From Unio delphinus (Eukaryota; Mollusca; Bivalvia; Unionida; Unionidae), in the NCBI GenBank assembly GCA_029339505.1, contig JAQISU010000179.1, positions 7,842,001 to 7,906,000 on the forward strand: DNA of 64,000 nucleotides. Reading direction: 5' to 3'. The notes beneath the pieces are model-generated. The model did not search any database. It had not been told where the DNA came from and saw nothing but the letters and a program-made list of their open reading frames with translations. This document shows positions 6,434-39,590 of the stretch, one piece after another (position 1 is the stretch's first letter; every line of letters starts with the position of its first letter). A program made the position numbers and the translations under genes.

Positions 6434-7720
6434 GGTCCGTTGAGACGAGGGCAATGAAGCGAAGGTCAGAGTCAAAGCCGCTAAGACACACGACTTTTCC
6501 CAATGACAATTTGCTACCTTGCGAGTTGAGGAAACTTCAAGAGGAAGATCTGCCTCTCAATTAGGTACTCAGGTACGCAAAAGATGGGTCCATACGGAAA
6601 TTGCCGGACGGCACGGTAAAATTCGCGACGAAACGCGGTATTGTGTATCGGTAAACCAGGAAAGGGACGGATAAGTTTAAACAAGTTGTTCGGCCCATAG
6701 TGAGCGAGCAAAAGTGCTTAGGCTGGCACACGAGGGTCTACTTGAAAGTCATATGGGCGTGGCGAAGACCAGAGATAGGTTCGTAAGGGAATTCTTCTGG
6801 CCAAGTGTGTACGGGAATGTTAGTAGGTTTTGTTTGTCGTGTGACAAGTGTCAGCTGGTGGCACCTAAGACCTCCCATTGCCCTGTGCCACTAGGAACCA
6901 TCCTACTGATTAACGGGGGTGGCGATGGACCTATTAGGTCGGATAAAGCCTGGGGCAGAAGGTGTTAATCGTTTTGTACTAACGATAGTCGATTACGCCA
7001 AATGTGGCCTTATAAAACATTGACTCAGTCACAGTCGATGAGGCCTTGTTAGGAGTTTGGCCTAGAGTTGGGTTCCTAGAATAGATACTAATTGACCAGG
7101 GACGCAGTTATGAACCAGGTGATGGAAGAGGTAAACATAATACTATTCATGAGACATCTGACAACTACCCGCAGTGCAATGGTTTGGTGGAGCGTTTCAA
7201 TGTTACATTGAAATTGGCTCTAAGAAGCTCTGGGAAGATCAACCCAGGGATTGGCATCGATACCTTCCTTCGTTATGTTTTGCGTATCGAGAAGTAACAT
7301 AGGCTAGTTTAGGCTTTTCGCCTTTTGAGTTAGTCAATGGAAGAGATGGTTAGGGAACCATGACTGCATTAAGTAATCATGGACGGATGAACAAGCATCC
7401 GAGTAAGTGCGAATAACATACCAATATGTTGTTGATCTTCGCAACAAGCTGGAAGGAATTTCTAAAAATGGCTCAGAAGAATTTCGTCGAAGCAAGTGGG
7501 CGTCAAGCCAAATATTACAATGAAAAGACGAAGGAACGTCACTTCGAGGTGGGTGACAAGATGTTTTTGCTGCTGTTAGAGCACAATTAACGCCAAGTCT
7601 AATGGAGGAGACCATTCGTGATAACGGAGAAAAAGGGTGGGCATAACTAGCGTATTAGGAAGGAGAAAAGGATAGACTGTACCACGAAAATCTCCTGAAA
7701 TGTTACCGTGAAAGAGAGAC
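6434..7720 (+). pseudogene. Integrase region of Gypsy relic
   Basis: The zinc-binding domain is intact in the frame 6714-6968: HEGLLESH, then about 29 residues later CLSCDKC, which completes HHCC. The catalytic core follows with first Asp in LTIVDYAKCG (~6990), second Asp in a degraded TDQG stretch (~7092), and catalytic Glu in CNGLVERFN (~7165-7190). Downstream, SLGFSPFELVNGR and a C-terminal FEVGDKMFLLL, typical of chromoviral/Gmr1-like integrases, are visible. In-frame stops and frameshifts occur between about 7020 and 7350 and again near 7590, so it is inactive. Confidence 0.85.
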
Positions 7721-13335: not shown

Positions 13336-13745
13336 CGGTCGGCGAGAATGTCATATTCGATCACTGGTATGTCAGAAAGTAGTAAACAGTTTAATATCAC
13401 TGGTCCGCGAGAAAGTCATATTCTATTGAAATTACAAGTCTGCAAGATGGTCATATTCTATTGAAATTACAAGTCTGCGAGAAAGTCATATTCTATTGAA
13501 ATTACAAGTCTGCAAGATGGTCATATTTTATTGAAATTAGAAGTCTGCGAGAAAGTCATATTCTATTGAAATTACAAGTCTGCAAGATGGTCATATTTTA
13601 TTGAAATTAGAAGTCTGCGAGAAAATCATATTCTATTGAAATTACAAGTCTGCAAGATGGTCATATTCTATTAAAATTAGAAGTCTGCGAGAAAGTCATA
13701 TTCTATTGAAACTACAGGCTTGCGAGAAAGTCGTATTATGTTGAA
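13336..13745. repeat. 35-bp minisatellite with alternating unit types
   Basis: Ten clear units of 35 bp (core gtcatattctattgaaatta) preceded by degenerate ones. Type A contains tgcaagatgg and type B tgcgagaaag. From 13408 the order is B A B A B A B A B B, so the working repeat is a ~70-bp dimer. Confidence 0.93.
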
Positions 13746-14544
13746 AATATCATTATAAACAATCTTACATGCTTTTGAAGTATATTACAAAATTAGTATA
13801 CAGTACACAGTTATAACTATGTTATTTGATTAACAAGATGAAATGATTTGCATGTTACATATGCAATGGGTTATAAATTCACAAAAGCAGCCGTTTCAAA
13901 GTACGCCTGTGCCTTATCTTTTACTAGTATAAATGCGTCATAAATTTGCTATTAGAGATTAAATAAACTTTCAGTTGGCACTTGAAACAGATAATATCTT
14001 ATTTCAAACTGGTTACACAATCTAATGTTGTAAATATTTAAGTGTATGCTTGGCTTAATTAACTAATTTGTGCAGGTTTTATGAAGGAAAATAAAAACTT
14101 TCAATAAACCCATGACTGTCACGTTGGCAATAACCATATGGGCAAACATTAAATTCAGAGAAGATAATCATAGAAAGTATGCATGTAGAATTTGTGAGGG
14201 ACGACATTTTACCTTGAAAACAGATTACGCTGATGCGCGAAAGATTGAAAAAGACAGCTGGAATTCGTTCAAGGTCAAAGTGTAATCATCTCTGATATTT
14301 TTAAGATATATTTTCTCCAAGAGTGTCATCAGAATGTACCAAATATAGTCATAATCTTCTACCCGCTTGCCCGAGATACCACTAACATCAAGTCTCTTCC
14401 TTTGGCCTTATTCTTTCCTTGACGATGAGTGTGTGCGCTTCTATCTGGAAATACTTTTCTGCTACGATACTAAGCATCCGAGGAACAAAAATATCACAGT
14501 TCGCAACTGTAATGTATGTTCGAAAGTCTCCAATAACATACATC
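13746..14544. other. No recognisable feature
   Basis: AT-rich unique DNA. Overlapping 62-codon frames on both strands at 14367-14576 are not recognisable. Confidence 0.5.
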
Positions 14545-15452
14545 TCTATGTATAGAACATAGGATCTATAATACATCCCTGATTAGGCCGTATGTATAGA
14601 ACATAGGATGTATAATACATCCCTGATTAGGCCGTATGTATAGAACATAGGATCTATAATACATTCCTGATTAGGCCGTATGTATAGAACATAGGATATA
14701 TAATACATCCCTGATACATCTCTATGTATATAACATAGGATATATAATACATCCCTGATACATCTCTATGTATATAACATAGGATATATAATACATCCCT
14801 GATTAGGCTATATGTATAGAACATAGGATATATAATACATCCCTGATTAGGCTATATGTATAAAACATAGGATCTATAATACATCCCTGATTAGGCTATA
14901 TGTATAGAACATAGGATATAAAATACATCCCTGATTAGGCTATATGTATAGAACATAGGATATATAATACATCCCAGATTAGGCCGTATGTATATAACAT
15001 AGGATATATAATACATCCCTGATTAGGCTATATGTATAGAATATAGGATCTATAATACATCCCTGATTAGGCTATATGTATAGAACATAGGATCTATAAT
15101 ACATCCCTGATTAGGCTATATGTATAGAACATAGGATATATAATACATCCCTGATACATCTCTATGTATATAACATAGGATATATAATACATCCCTGATT
15201 AGGCCGTATGTATATAACATAGGATATATAATACATCCCTGATTAGGCCGTATGTATATAACATAGGATATATAATACATTCCTGATTAGGCTATATGTA
15301 TAGAACATAGGATCTATAATACATCCCTGATTAGACTATATGTATAGAACATAGGATATATAATGCATCCATATATATATATATACCAAAGGATCTATAT
15401 AATACATCCTGATTGGGGTATATGTATTTAACATTGGATATATAAGATAAGA
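14545..15452. repeat. ~42-bp minisatellite, left part
   Basis: About 21 units of gtatagaacataggat followed by ctataatacatccctgat and taggcc/ta. Some shorter units carry acatctctatgtata instead. The last units before 15450 change to the gattggggtatatgta type, which is the type found to the right of the LINE at 20.27 kb, so both belong to one array. Confidence 0.93.
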
Positions 15453-17992: not shown

Positions 17993-18739
17993 TCATGAAT
18001 CAAATTTGGGAAGCAATTTAGTCTTGATAGTCATTAAAGTAGGACGATGGTCGGACCCTACTAGGGTGTGAAGTATTCTCATATCACTTATAGCGGAATG
18101 AGCAGACTGTGTAGAGGCACAATGATCCAACCAAGACATTATATTGTGTGCATCACTGACGTAAGTAAAATTAGTTGTGTGGTCTACAATTAGTTTTAAG
18201 TCCGATATGATATAACCATATTCGTCAGAAAATAGGCGAAGCTCATTTCCAAAGGAAGTGGATTTGAGCGTATTAGCATTCCAATCTCCTACTACATAAG
18301 TATTTAGCGCATTAACATTTTCTACAACAGAATTAATTTTGCCCAAATAATCTACAAATTCTCCAAAATTTTCCGCAAGATTGCAAGGTAAATATGTATT
18401 TATAAAAAGCAAGGAGGAATCCCCCGTATGGATAGAAATACCTATTAATCTGGGATCATGGAAATGTTGTACTTTGATAATACTTGCGAGAGATCTACGA
18501 TAAAGTACCCCGACACCTCCATAAGGTCTACCGGTATGAATATCGCTAGAAGATTTAATCGGCGATTCCCCTGATCCAAAGAACTCGTCGTGTACGGATG
18601 AGAGACAGTCTAACTCACTGTCTAGAAGCCACAATTCTTGTAGGAAACAAATATCGGAAATATCACATAAAGCTCTTACATTTTGTATATTTCTTGTTAA
18701 TAAACGACAGTTATAGAAAGAAATGCGTAAAGAATCCAT
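17993..18739 (-). pseudogene. LINE ORF2 endonuclease domain (open, 248 codons)
   Basis: An open frame with the EEP endonuclease motifs in order: N in FYNCRLL (~residue 10), E in FLQELWL (~34), GRPYGGVGVLYRRS (~71), VVGDWNAN (~147), SWLDHCA (~204) and the terminal SDHRPT (~229). These are the metal- and DNA-binding positions that nick the target site for target-primed reverse transcription. The variant GDWNAN replaces the common GDFN. It starts at ATG 18739, just downstream of ORF1 in the minus direction. The domain is well kept compared with the RT, so decay is probably not very old. Confidence 0.9.
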
Positions 18740-18749
18740 TATGTATATT

Positions 18750-20185
18750 TGAGTCTAACAATGGTTCCATTCCGACTTTGATAGAAGTCTCTAACTAAAG
18801 TGTTTCTTGGCCACGCATCTACGTTCATCATCGCTTTGTGCGTAGGGTTATCGCATGTGATTTTGAAGCTGGCATTGTATTAAATGTCGTTTTTTAGTTT
18901 TTCCACCTGAGTGGGCTTAACTCCAGAGTAATGCTCAAAATGTGAAGAAATGTCCGATTCCTGCGTTTCGGGGGCAAGTCATGTCACGAATATGCATCGC
19001 TGTCGCATTGGACACACTGTACGCAAATTTGAAGAAGCTGCCTTTCCTATTATTACACTTCCACGCCTTCTTGGAAACTGGTGTGTGGATTGGACATTCA
19101 TAAACTTATTAAGCTGTCGTTGATGCAGATGTATGCCCGATGTTTTATGTATAAATGCGGCCACAGAAGGGTCATTGTTCCGCAGAGATCTTGCAACTTT
19201 AGCAAAAGTTTTGTCGTTTTCCAAATCCTCGTCTTGAGCGATGGTGTCTTCTGAACATGCGACCATTTTTAATGCGGTTGTGCTGTGGTTTAATTCACCA
19301 TCATCAGATATATTATTCTCCTGACTTTCTGCAGTTGTATTCCATAAAGCAGAGCAGATCTTATTTGCACTAAATTGAATCTCTTGGTTGATTGAATCCG
19401 TGTATTGCACATCTTTGCGCGCGAAACTAGTAACGGTTTTTTCTTTTGAACGACTGGGATCAGGACCATTCCTCGTTGACCTACATGGTTGGCCTTTCAG
19501 CTCGTGACTTTTTTATACTGTAGCCTCCGATAGCAGATGAATTCTCAGTGAGAACAATGTCAGACTGAACTGTGTTCGAATTGTCAACATGGGGAGGTAA
19601 TGTACTTTTGACTGTCGAACATGGCTGGGTTTGATCGCATAATCGTTGCATTGCACATCACGTCTCCGCCTGCACTGACTTAAGTATGTCCACCGAATGT
19701 TTCACATTTTCCATGTCCTTCAATAAAATTTACATGTCCACATAATTGTAAGATACCGGTGGCAACTTTGAAAGATCCAAAGCGCAAAAACTAGGTATGT
19801 CATTGGGATCTGTGGACAGAAATAGATTCAATATATCTTTCATATTATTTATAGATTTATCCATACCTTTCCTCTTTATCATTCTCTCAACTGTTGGTAC
19901 CACTGAGAACAGGGTCCGTTTTGCAGTCTCAATGTCACTGTCACAATATGTATCCACACACAGCTTCACAATATAATCATATAGCAATGTGTTCGTTTTG
20001 TTTTGTACAAAACAAAGAAGTTCATTCACCATTATTGTCGAGCTAATAGCTAACCGCTGTCGTTGGTAATCTGCCGCCATACTTACAGGGCTTCTCGCCA
20101 CTCAAGGAAATCTTTCCAGTTCACATTTCGTACAAAGGAATAAATCTCCCTGACACAAATGACCAGTAGAGGTTCCACAATCTTC
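18750..20185 (-). pseudogene. LINE ORF1, zinc-finger and nucleic-acid-binding type (broken)
   Basis: Starts with a small Cys-rich zinc-binding motif (MQCEDCG, HLCQGDLFLC, TKCELERF), then a stop at about 20103 before VARSPVSMAADYQRQR. Open pieces at 20101-19730 and 19410-18979 cover a helical middle region and a basic stretch (QFPRRRGS). The C-terminal part (CIFVT then LAPETQESDISSHFEHYSG, and later DAWPRNTLVRDFY) looks like the compact RNA-binding domain at the end of ORF1 proteins of related LINEs. It would bind the element's RNA in a ribonucleoprotein. The order and position directly upstream of ORF2 support the call. Stops break it. Confidence 0.7.
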
Positions 20186-20904: not shown

Positions 20905-22245
20905 TCAAAATGTGTGTGATGAACTATCCAAATTTAAAATTACCGATGACACAATGATGATTTATCCAAATTTAACATTACCGATGACACAATGATGACC
21001 TATGCAAATGTAACATTATCGATGACACAATGATGACCTATGCAAATGTAACATTACCGATGACACAATGATGACCTATGCAAATGTAACATTACCGATG
21101 ACACAATGATCACCTATGCAAATTTAACATTATCGATGAGACAATGATAACCTATGCAAATGTAACATTACCGATGACACAATGATGACCTATGCAAATG
21201 TAACATTACCGATGAGACAATGATGACCTATGCAAATGTAACATTACCGATGACACAATGATCACCTATGCAAATTTAACATTATCGATGAGACAATGAT
21301 GACCTATGCAAATGTAACAAAACCGATGAGACAATGATGACCTTTGCAAATTTAACATTATCGATGAGACAATGATGACCTATGCAAATGTAACATTACC
21401 GATGACACAATGATGACCTATGCAAATTTAACATTAGCGATGAGACAATGATGACCTATGCAAATGTAACATTACCGATGAGACAATGATGACCTATGCA
21501 AATTTAACATTACCGATGACACAATGATGACCTATGCAAATGTAACATTACCGATGAGACAATGATGACCTATGCAAATTTAACATTAGCGATGACACAA
21601 TGATGACCTATGCAAATTTAACATTAGCAGTGAGACAATGATGACCTATGCAAATGTAACATTACCAATGACACAATGATGACCTATGCAAATTTAACAT
21701 TAGCGATGAGACAATGATGACCTATGCAAATGTAGCATTACCGATGACACAATGATGACCTATGCAAATGTAACATTATCGATGACACAATGATGACCTA
21801 TGCAAATGTAACATTAGCGATGACACAATGATGACCTATGCAAATGTAACATTACCGATGACACAATGATGACCAATCCAAATTTAACATTACCGATGAG
21901 ACAATGATGACCTATGCAAATGTAACATTACCGATGACTCAATGATGACCTATGCAAATGTAACATTACCGATGACACAATGATGACCTATGCAAATGTA
22001 ACATTAGCGATGAGACAATGATGACCTATGCAAATGTAACATTACCGATGAGACAATGATGACCTATGCAAATGTAACATTACCGATGACACAATGATGA
22101 CCTATGCAAATGTAACATTACCGATGACACAATGATGACTTATGAAAATATAACATTACCGATGACACAATGATGACCTATGCAAATGTAACATTAGCGA
22201 TGAGACAATGATGACCTTTGCAAATATAACATTAGCGATGATACA
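20905..22245. repeat. 38-bp minisatellite carrying octamer motif ATGCAAAT
   Basis: About 35 units of 38 bp (acaatgatgacctatgcaaa then tgtaacattaccgatgac). Units vary at aaatgta/aaattta, accgatg/agcgatg/atcgatg and gacac/gagac. Edge units are more diverged, with tatcc instead of tatgc on the left. Most units contain a perfect ATGCAAAT, the POU-factor octamer. Confidence 0.96.
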
Positions 22246-22249
22246 ATGA

Positions 22250-22800
22250 TGGACATGGAAGCACAAACATAAGGGCAAGGAGCGGAGAAAGATCTTGTCA
22301 ACCACCTCCACCCCTCCAATTTCGCCTCTAAAGATTATTTGGCCTACTTCGTAAAGCTTGAACCTTAATATTAAGCTGACCTCAACCCACCAAAATAATT
22401 CTGCTATCGTACGAGGGCTTGTAGAAACTTTCAGCATTGCAACCATTTTAGAGACCATAACCACAATTAAATTCACTAATGTTGTGCTCAATACTCATTT
22501 TACAAATTTACAACGATATTTATGTGGACCATGACTCAGGGTGATTGTTACGGCGAGAGACGGGGTAGATTGTTTAAAAAATAGGAAGAATATAAATGAA
22601 TGCTGTGTTTTGTGGGATTATCTTCTCAAAATCATGAATTTTGTGTACAACATAATTCACGTATTTACAAAATATTAAAAATGAATACGGATAATTTCGG
22701 CTCCACACTATTCATGTACAATGCTTAAATTATCGCTGGGGGGAAAGGAAACTTTACCGTGTTAAAAATACAAGACAAACATTTAATGGTGACCATATTT
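22250..22800. other. No recognised gene
   Basis: A 111-codon minus-strand frame (22156-22491) overlaps the end of the 38-bp array, so its C-terminal part is repeat-derived. The unique part has no recognisable motif. Confidence 0.5.
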
Positions 22801-27877: not shown

Positions 27878-27885
27878 CTCTATCG
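27878..27885. repeat. Left 8-bp target-site duplication (ctctatcg)
   Basis: Identical to 28073-28080 and directly abutting the terminal inverted repeat. Eight bases with TA at the centre is the pattern of hAT insertions. Confidence 0.92.
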
Positions 27886-28072
27886 CAGCGGTTCTCAACC
27901 TTTCTAGTGCCGCGACCCTTTTAATGCAATTCCAAATGTTGTGGCGACCCAACCGTAAAGTTATTTTCGTTCATAACTGTAAAAATGTATATTTCCGATG
28001 GTCGTAAGCGACCCCTGGCAAATCGTTGTTCGACCCTTGACGGGGTCGCGACCCACAGGTTGAGAACCGCTG
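27886..28072. mobile_element. SPIN-like hAT non-autonomous element (MITE), 187 bp
   Basis: Begins cagcggttctcaacc and ends with its exact complement ggttgagaaccgctg. It is flanked by a perfect 8-bp duplication, so it moved by hAT-type cut-and-paste. The subterminal sequence (gtgccgcgaccc and ttgtggcgacccaacc on the left; tccgatggtcgtaagcgaccc and gacggggtcgcgacccac on the right) matches what I know of SPIN elements. Those are hAT transposons shared by horizontal transfer among tetrapods, triatomine bugs and a pond snail. It encodes no transposase and depends on an autonomous element elsewhere. The SPIN assignment is from memory of the family; the hAT assignment is seen directly. Confidence 0.88.
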
Positions 28073-28080
28073 CTCTATCG
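28073..28080. repeat. Right 8-bp target-site duplication (ctctatcg)
   Basis: Perfect copy of 27878-27885, immediately outside the right terminal inverted repeat. Confidence 0.92.
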
Positions 28081-38179: not shown

Positions 38180-39088
38180 AGTACCAAGACATTTTGTCAG
38201 CTTCATATAAGTAGCAGTCATATTCGATATTATTAGACTATTTCAGTACCAAGACATTTTGTCAACTTCATATAAGTAGAAGTCATATTCGATATTATTA
38301 GACTATATCAGTACCAAGACATTTTGTCAACTTCATATAAGTAGAAGTCATATTCGATATTATTAGACTATATCAGTACCAAGACATTTTGTCAACTTCA
38401 TATAAGTAGAAGTCATATTCGATATTATTAGACTATATCAGTACCAAGACATTTTGTCAACTTCATATAAGTAGAAGTCATATTCGATATTATTAGACTA
38501 TATCAGTACCAAGACATTTTGTCAACTTCATATAAGTAGAAGTCATATTTGATATTATTAGACTATATCAGTACCAAGACATTTTGTCAACTTCATATAA
38601 GTAGAAGTCATATTCGATATTATTAGACTATATCAGTACCAAGACATTTTGTCAACTTCATATAAGTAGAAGTCATATTCGATATTATTAGACTATATCA
38701 GTACCAAGACATTTTGTCAACTTCATGTAAGTAGCAGTCATATTCGATATTATTAGACTATATCAGTACCAAGACATTTTGTCAACTTCATATAAGTAGC
38801 AGTCATATTCGATATTATTAGACTATATCAGTACCAAGACATTTTGTCAACTTCATGTAAGTAGCAGTCATATTCGATATTATTAGACTATTTCAGTACC
38901 AAGACATTTTGTCAACTTCATATAAGTAGCAGTCATATTCGATATTATTAGACTATATCAGTACCAAGACATTTTGTCAACTTCATATAAGTAGCAGTCA
39001 TATTCGATATTATTAGACTATATCAGTACCAAGACATTTTGTCAACTTCATATAAGTAGCAGTCATATTCGATATTATTAGACTATTT
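38180..39088. repeat. 65-bp satellite-like array, 14 near-identical units
   Basis: Fourteen units of 65 bp (cagtaccaagacattttgtc ... gatattattagactatat) with very few differences. Units 2-8 carry agtagaagtc; unit 1 and units 9-14 carry agtagcagtc. Units 9 and 11 have catgtaag, and units 1, 11 and 14 end tatttc. Variants are grouped in blocks, which points to recent block duplication. Confidence 0.97.
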
Positions 39089-39089
39089 C

Positions 39090-39590
39090 AGTAGCAAGGT
39101 ACAGCTCTGACACGGTTTCATCTCCACGCCACTGAAAATCCAGCATTAAGGAAAGTGGTCCAGTTATATATTGCTTTGAGTTTTGTTTTGTATGGGGGTT
39201 GGGGTTATGCAGTTTTAATGAAAGTGGTCCAGCGATGATTAAATGTCTAGTGGAAGAGCTGGCATTTGAATCAATCGGTCAATTTTGCGTGGGTAGTGTC
39301 AACTTCACAAAAAGCCCTTTCTATTTTTGAATTGAAATCGTGATCCATAAATAAAATTTTATACTTTCTGTAGTGGTCAATGGGAGTTATGCATGCTAAT
39401 TGATCAGTTAATCAGATTAGTTTTTATGCGTTGCACGTGTGCAATGGCTTACCAAGAAAATAATCTAACGAAATGAATTTTGAGTGGTGTTCAGAGTCTT
39501 CATTAGACTTGTACGCAAAGTGGTCCAACTGTTCTCTCGTATAAGAGTATGAAGATGCTATGATTTCCATGCGGTAATCCAGCTATCGTC
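39090..39590. other. No recognised gene
   Basis: Unique DNA in which gaaagtggtccag or gtggtcca recurs several times (39151, 39221, 39520) with irregular spacing; possibly a very old tandem repeat. Confidence 0.4.

Follow-up and report, generated by a model that had tools for sequence, protein, structure and literature searches.

SPIN (SPACE INVADERS) is a DNA transposon often cited as an example of movement across animal phyla. Its insertions are flanked by 8-bp target site duplications (TSDs) with a central TA, of the form nnnTAnnn; its terminal inverted repeats (TIRs) begin with CAGCGGTTCTCAACC, and its non-autonomous form, SPIN_NA, is approximately 310 bp long. Xenopus is a SPIN host, and the element is reportedly present in Lymnaea as well. 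Hosts in print include vespertilionid bats, rodents and a galago relative (in passages of PMC5857283) and squamates (in passages of PMC11008031). Gilbert et al. (2010), as cited in a passage of PMC11614815, described the transfer of SPIN, OC1, hAT1 and ET between vertebrates and Rhodnius prolixus. For Biomphalaria glabrata, passages of PMC5440852 describe a SPIN-like hAT with approximately 1,000 copies, and report that the DNA transposons in that assembly include no intact transposase.

Here we describe a short element that is very probably a deletion-derived, non-autonomous SPIN hAT in a unionid nuclear genome, mobilized in trans, horizontally acquired and recently amplified. The mussel elements resemble tetrapod SPIN and its SPIN_NA MITEs in the TIR, in the 8-bp nnnTAnnn duplication and in the transposase. 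They differ from them in that the mussel transposases form a fully supported group of their own beside the tetrapod clade, and in that the commonest mussel form seen measures 187 bp, having arisen through a larger internal deletion than that of the approximately 310-bp SPIN_NA. Going by the description in the passages of PMC5440852, the element of B. glabrata likewise occurs at high copy number in a freshwater mollusc host; no intact transposase is reported there, whereas the mussel, a bivalve, has a SPIN copy with an open frame. The case of R. prolixus, according to the passage of PMC11614815, is also one in which horizontal transfer has left an invertebrate and vertebrates with SPIN in common, but Rhodnius is a blood-feeding insect, and the mussel would need a different route.

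The window, by which we mean the whole 64-kb stretch of DNA that was analysed, contains one copy of the 187-bp non-autonomous element (MITE), at 27886–28072 on the plus strand. It lies between two exact copies of the octamer CTCTATCG (27878–27885 on the left and 28073–28080 on the right, both unstranded), which fits nnnTAnnn. The left TIR, CAGCGGTTCTCAACCT, occupies 27886–27901 (plus strand) and the right TIR 28057–28072 (minus strand). The two are perfect over 16 bp, and the pairing reads 17 since a flanking G and C chance to pair. They carry the CAGCGGTTCTCAACC motif, and identical ends are found on transposase-bearing elements of the same genome. A first-pass annotation, made from the letters of the window, had called this insertion a SPIN-like hAT MITE in a probable mollusc, with TIRs perfect over at least 15 bases and identical 8-bp duplications on both sides, and both of these boundary features held on measurement. 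The short TIR core is not decisive on its own, since its 11 bases, allowing at most one mismatch, are expected by chance approximately 0.55 times per window and were found at least twice in 10 of 100 shuffles. The full 187-bp element, unlike this core, is decisive. No second terminal core with at most one mismatch occurs elsewhere within the 64-kb window, and an Rfam scan of the window gave no match.

The first-pass annotation had also asked for a count of copies in the host genome and for a search for an autonomous SPIN transposase. The assembly searched comprises 2.505 Gb in 1246 contigs. The first 33 bases of the element occur in it 460 times with at most three mismatches (201 forward, 259 reverse), and the reversed 33-base control occurs 0 times. 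When 40 of 507 first-look candidates were scored, all 40, the window copy among them, aligned along all 187 bases at 98–100%. Thirty loci that reproduce the 33 bases without a mismatch were fetched; they comprise 24 elements of 186–189 bp, four of 316–331 bp, a single element of 1266 bp and the terminal part of one transposase-bearing element. The 1266-bp element (L020, 268–1533) is SPIN-ended and has an exact TSD, and its middle contains a degenerate repeat of GGGGCGACTTCTCC; it is a further non-autonomous SPIN form.

Target site duplications were tallied over 47 loci. These remained from 52 SPIN loci examined after the removal of two segmental duplicates and of three loci that have no recognised end pair in the stretch (L034, L045 and L057, the first and last of which are fragments of elements already represented by L044 and L056). 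The two copies of the octamer are identical at 36 loci, and differ by one base at seven, by two at two, by five at one and by six at one. TA stands at positions 4–5 in 35 of the 36 identical duplications, which thus have the nnnTAnnn form of SPIN target sites; the frequency of TA in the window is 0.10. Three loci (L017, L018 and L021, of which contig C8 carries two and C14 the third) have identical 600-bp joined flanks and are a single insertion copied along with its surroundings, either in a recent duplication or within a bigger repeat that carries the SPIN element. They were counted as one locus in the tally and as three in the divergence means.

The same genome also contains longer, coding SPIN elements. 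One of them (L043, which is the same element as L044) is 2597 bp long, has a frameshifted transposase and is flanked by octamers alike at 6 of 8 bases. Its second frame matches PF05699, the C-terminal domain of hAT transposases, narrowly above the cut-off (22.5 against 21.4 bits), while its first transposase frame matched no Pfam family at 0.001 and had no match in a PDB sequence search. A genome search with this first frame gave 97 matches (94 scored of 4682 candidates); among the candidates scored, and leaving the query aside, SPIN-type matches lie at 89–97%, with one at 78%, and all remaining matches at 47% or less. Eleven more loci (L046–L056) have both ends, measure 2259–2598 bp and carry an identical 8-bp TSD in each case, which fits nnnTAnnn in 10 of the 11, the exception being L056. 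Of these, L046 is 2597 bp long, stands between perfect copies of ATATAGGA, and has a frame of 615 codons without a break, 602 of them from a methionine. The search for an autonomous transposase thus ends in a copy that combines an unbroken frame with a perfect TSD. L052 was considered as an older lineage (78% protein identity, 8 stops) and rejected; because its first ~220 codons agree with those of the other copies and both termini have undergone rearrangement, it is treated as a damaged copy.

How the short element relates to the long ones is visible when it is aligned with 12 of them (L044 and L046–L056). Its left arm, element positions 1–97 (27886–27982, plus strand), aligns to the transposase-3' end at 93–99%, and its right arm, element positions 96–187 (27981–28072, plus strand), aligns to the transposase-5' end at 92–100%, both in 11 of the 12 copies; the rearranged L052 matches the 187-bp element only in part. 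Because the two arms align to opposite ends of the ~2.6-kb elements, the window element is the product of an internal deletion, and at the deletion junction the arms overlap by approximately 2 bp. It has what defines a MITE: its many copies are homogeneous, and both its ends recur on a coding element within this genome.

The non-autonomous copies also resemble vertebrate SPIN_NA in internal sequence. Against a SPIN_NA yardstick that was drawn from no database and set down after the mussel copies had been viewed, which makes the similarity a lead and no independent record, the four 316–331-bp copies are 91–93% alike over 300–301 aligned bases (26–40 gap columns), and a 187-bp copy is 89% alike over 186 aligned bases (126 gap columns), with a score of 116 against −126 for the best of 100 shuffles. 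Likeness to vertebrates is also seen 5' of the presumed start codon of the transposase, where the mussel DNA YCYIIFSLANQP and the predicted pit-viper protein YCYILFSLANHP are alike at 10 of 12 positions, though this stretch may itself be coding.

To place these elements in their host, we used a tyrosinase frame of 719 residues on contig C14. It matches Sinanodonta woodiana at 92% and Potamilus streckersoni at 84%, over 99% of its length, and the remaining rows (45 in all) lie at 64% or less, mostly over approximately one third of the query. Judged by this gene, the host is a unionid and stands closer to Sinanodonta, and the probable mollusc of the first-pass annotation is thus a bivalve and not a snail. 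The tyrosinase also overturns an initial assignment of the host to an octopus, which had been based on genome size and simple-sequence repeats.

The first transposase frame was then compared with 5.8 billion proteins (scored: the 7974 candidates with the most shared words; 2807 matches, 120 of them listed). Among the best 120 of the 2807, full-length matches fall from 89% to approximately 74% and then drop to 58% or less. The names in the upper range of these 120 are those of reptiles (snakes, geckos and an anole), frogs, bats (vespertilionids and others), a slow loris, rodents and an ascidian, and a scorpion joins them with a partial match; at 56% or less come crustaceans, a sea spider and an aphid, and mollusc names are absent from the 120. 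Annotators have named the related proteins ZBED8-, ZBED5-, FAM200- or SCAND3-like, and SPIN appears in none of the names among the matches listed. The L046 transposase is 75–86% identical to 21 vertebrate rows. Eleven of these, from ten genera (Protobothrops, Rana, Rhinophrynus, Bufo, Pantherophis, Myotis, Eptesicus, Sphaerodactylus, Nycticebus and Crotalus), reach 82–86% over 583–602 aligned residues; nearest to L046 among the matches listed are three entries without an organism name, at 88–89%. The hosts of the nearest named proteins agree with the SPIN hosts given in the passages of PMC5857283 and PMC11008031. Arm matches of 92–97 bp and this level of transposase identity together sustain the earlier assignment of the window element to SPIN.

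A tree of 37 rows, 34 picked from the 120 listed and three from the mussel, places the mussel rows in one group (100/100) within a SPIN clade that also holds the vertebrate rows (100/100). Next to the mussel group stands a clade (100/99) made up of 19 rows from vertebrates and a single unnamed one, and the branch joining the two is weak (87/63). The branch that unites the mussel with the other vertebrates (98/93) leaves out Rana and Rhinophrynus. An AU test of a single vertebrate clade against mussel plus outgroup gave p = 0.083, which is no strict rejection. Given this value and the weak joining branch, the tree favours, short of proof, a nesting of the mussel transposases among vertebrate SPIN sequences.

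Horizontal arrival of SPIN in the mussel lineage is the best explanation of these comparisons, for three reasons. First, the transposases of mussel and viper are 85.5% identical, whereas the tyrosinase of the mussel and those of other bivalves are at most 64% alike, a host yardstick of one gene that excludes the two nearest (unionid) rows. Second, likeness extends outside the presumed coding frame. Third, the divergence among copies is low. The alternative is that SPIN was inherited vertically from an ancestor shared by molluscs and vertebrates, two lineages that diverged more than 500 million years ago, and was retained by selection. SPIN-clade proteins do occur in several phyla (chordates including the ascidian, the mussel and, by a partial match, a scorpion), and the AU test does not strictly reject a single vertebrate clade that excludes the mussel. 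However, the identity to the 21 vertebrate rows is implausible for a transposon after such a time, the likeness just 5' of the presumed start codon is equally implausible under long vertical descent, and the transposase copies are only approximately 3% apart. We thus regard vertical inheritance as very unlikely.

Under horizontal acquisition, SPIN would have entered the mussel lineage from outside rather than by descent from a mollusc–vertebrate ancestor, and would have amplified recently, after its arrival; there is strong support for both steps. The SPIN transposase of full-length copies would bind the common ends in trans, excise the short element and insert it at nnnTAnnn sites, and repair of the staggered cut would then duplicate 8 bp. 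Divergence among the copies bears on when this happened. In the 187-bp class, 32 copies differ from their consensus by a mean of 1.9% at all sites and 1.5% outside CpG, and for 24 copies with unmismatched ends the mean is 2.2% once the first 33 columns and CpG sites are excluded; as both sets were recovered through similarity, they are skewed to young copies. The eleven transposase elements that remain when L052 is omitted differ pairwise by 2.1–4.5%, with a mean of 3.0% (0.030, against 0.116 with L052, a value that reflects the wrong orientation of that copy). Transposase copies so close to one another point to a recent burst. With an assumed neutral rate of 1–5 x 10^-9 per site per year, the amplification would be of the order of 3–20 million years old.

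A second alternative, which the first-pass annotation had itself named as fatal to its call, is that the element belongs to another Buster-type hAT family and shares only its termini with SPIN. Other hATs with similar termini and mostly nnnTAnnn TSDs are indeed present in the same genome (L058–L064, L066 and L072). Yet among eight such non-SPIN elements compared, five match the window element over the last 30 bp only (87–90%) and three not at all, whereas SPIN-type elements match it over 97 and 92 bp on the two sides in 11 of 12 copies. In addition, the L046 transposase is only 41–42% identical to those of two of the other mussel hAT families (L058 and L064). As far as sequence comparison can tell, the arm matches have already refuted an affinity restricted to the termini, and we give it hardly any credence. 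One of these other families, L058–L063 (~2.5 kb), is like SPIN in its short TIRs and nnnTAnnn TSDs; it differs in a transposase identity of 45% to P0001 and in matching the MITE over the terminal 30 bp only (five copies compared). These six loci make up a second Buster-type hAT family, with elements of 2503–2522 bp, stop-free frames of 635–672 codons and an identical 8-bp TSD in five of the six, and the family is apparently young.

That the SPIN elements are contaminating vertebrate or cobiont DNA is next to inconceivable: foreign contigs do exist in the assembly (C871, apparently of ciliate mitochondrial type, and C445, with a second COX1 without TGA codons), but SPIN copies are scattered across many multi-megabase contigs and the window insertion is internal to a contig of 17.5 Mb. 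The 43.6-Mb contig C14 carries three of the SPIN ends listed as well as the mussel tyrosinase gene, so that contamination is no explanation for those ends, and the first-pass annotation's proviso of a vertebrate contig is answered by a unionid one. The two foreign contigs are observations in their own right. C871 (L012, G000:C871:1-10000 of a 36.2-kb contig) is a foreign eukaryote's mitochondrial contig, with a COX1 frame of ~670 residues that contains in-frame TGA codons and, within the first 10 kb read, tandem repeats over the first ~1.8 kb. It resembles linear ciliate mitochondrial DNA; relatives of its COX1 stand at 55–67% among 120 matches listed, and its source is perhaps a mantle-cavity ciliate of the mussel. 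C445, a contig of 191.5 kb, carries the second COX1 at 76315–77646 (L009) in a stop-free frame of 607 codons, and is perhaps a bacterial cobiont or contaminant. The COX1 search of the assembly found no host mitochondrion.

Unionid glochidia are larvae parasitic on fish or amphibians, and the adults are filter feeders. Larval parasitism in the Unionida is mentioned in passages of PMC10294476. Glochidia on fish or amphibians would be a plausible route of transfer. A fuller scenario, in which SPIN entered unionids in a recent, independent invasion, established a transposase system that is complete and possibly still competent, and moved via larvae parasitic on fish or amphibians, is one that we put forward as speculative and rather unlikely; if it were true, freshwater mussels would carry elements between invertebrates and the vertebrates of aquatic habitats. 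Larval hosts vary among many unionid species, which can be screened, and how SPIN crosses between hosts thus becomes testable.

SPIN is already known from molluscs, and we rate the bivalve as a host of a new class, in which the range of SPIN forms is unusually complete. The mussel, whose full-length copies include one that has an unbroken transposase frame, adds a SPIN host of a different mollusc class and way of life. Among the matches listed in open-licence PubMed Central, there was no report of SPIN in a bivalve; the word is absent from the main text of a bivalve transposon survey (PMC10294476), and six SPIN sequence strings had no occurrence in the papers searched. Passages of a snail–parasite transfer paper of 2026 (PMC13155389) concern other elements. 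No relatives emerged when viral_contigs was scanned with the 33-bp end, with 40 bp of internal SPIN sequence and with the transposase, or when genome_contigs was scanned with 30 bp of internal sequence.

The window contains other repeats besides the SPIN copy. Four minisatellite arrays lie at 13403–13746 (35-bp unit, 10 copies), 14547–15445 (44 bp, 21 copies), 20917–22251 (38 bp, 35 copies) and 38180–39098 (65 bp, 14 copies). Two retroelement remnants are also present, one at 6681–6968 on the plus strand with an integrase zinc-binding domain (PF17921), and one at 17993–18754 on the minus strand with an endonuclease/exonuclease domain frame (PF03372, PF14529).
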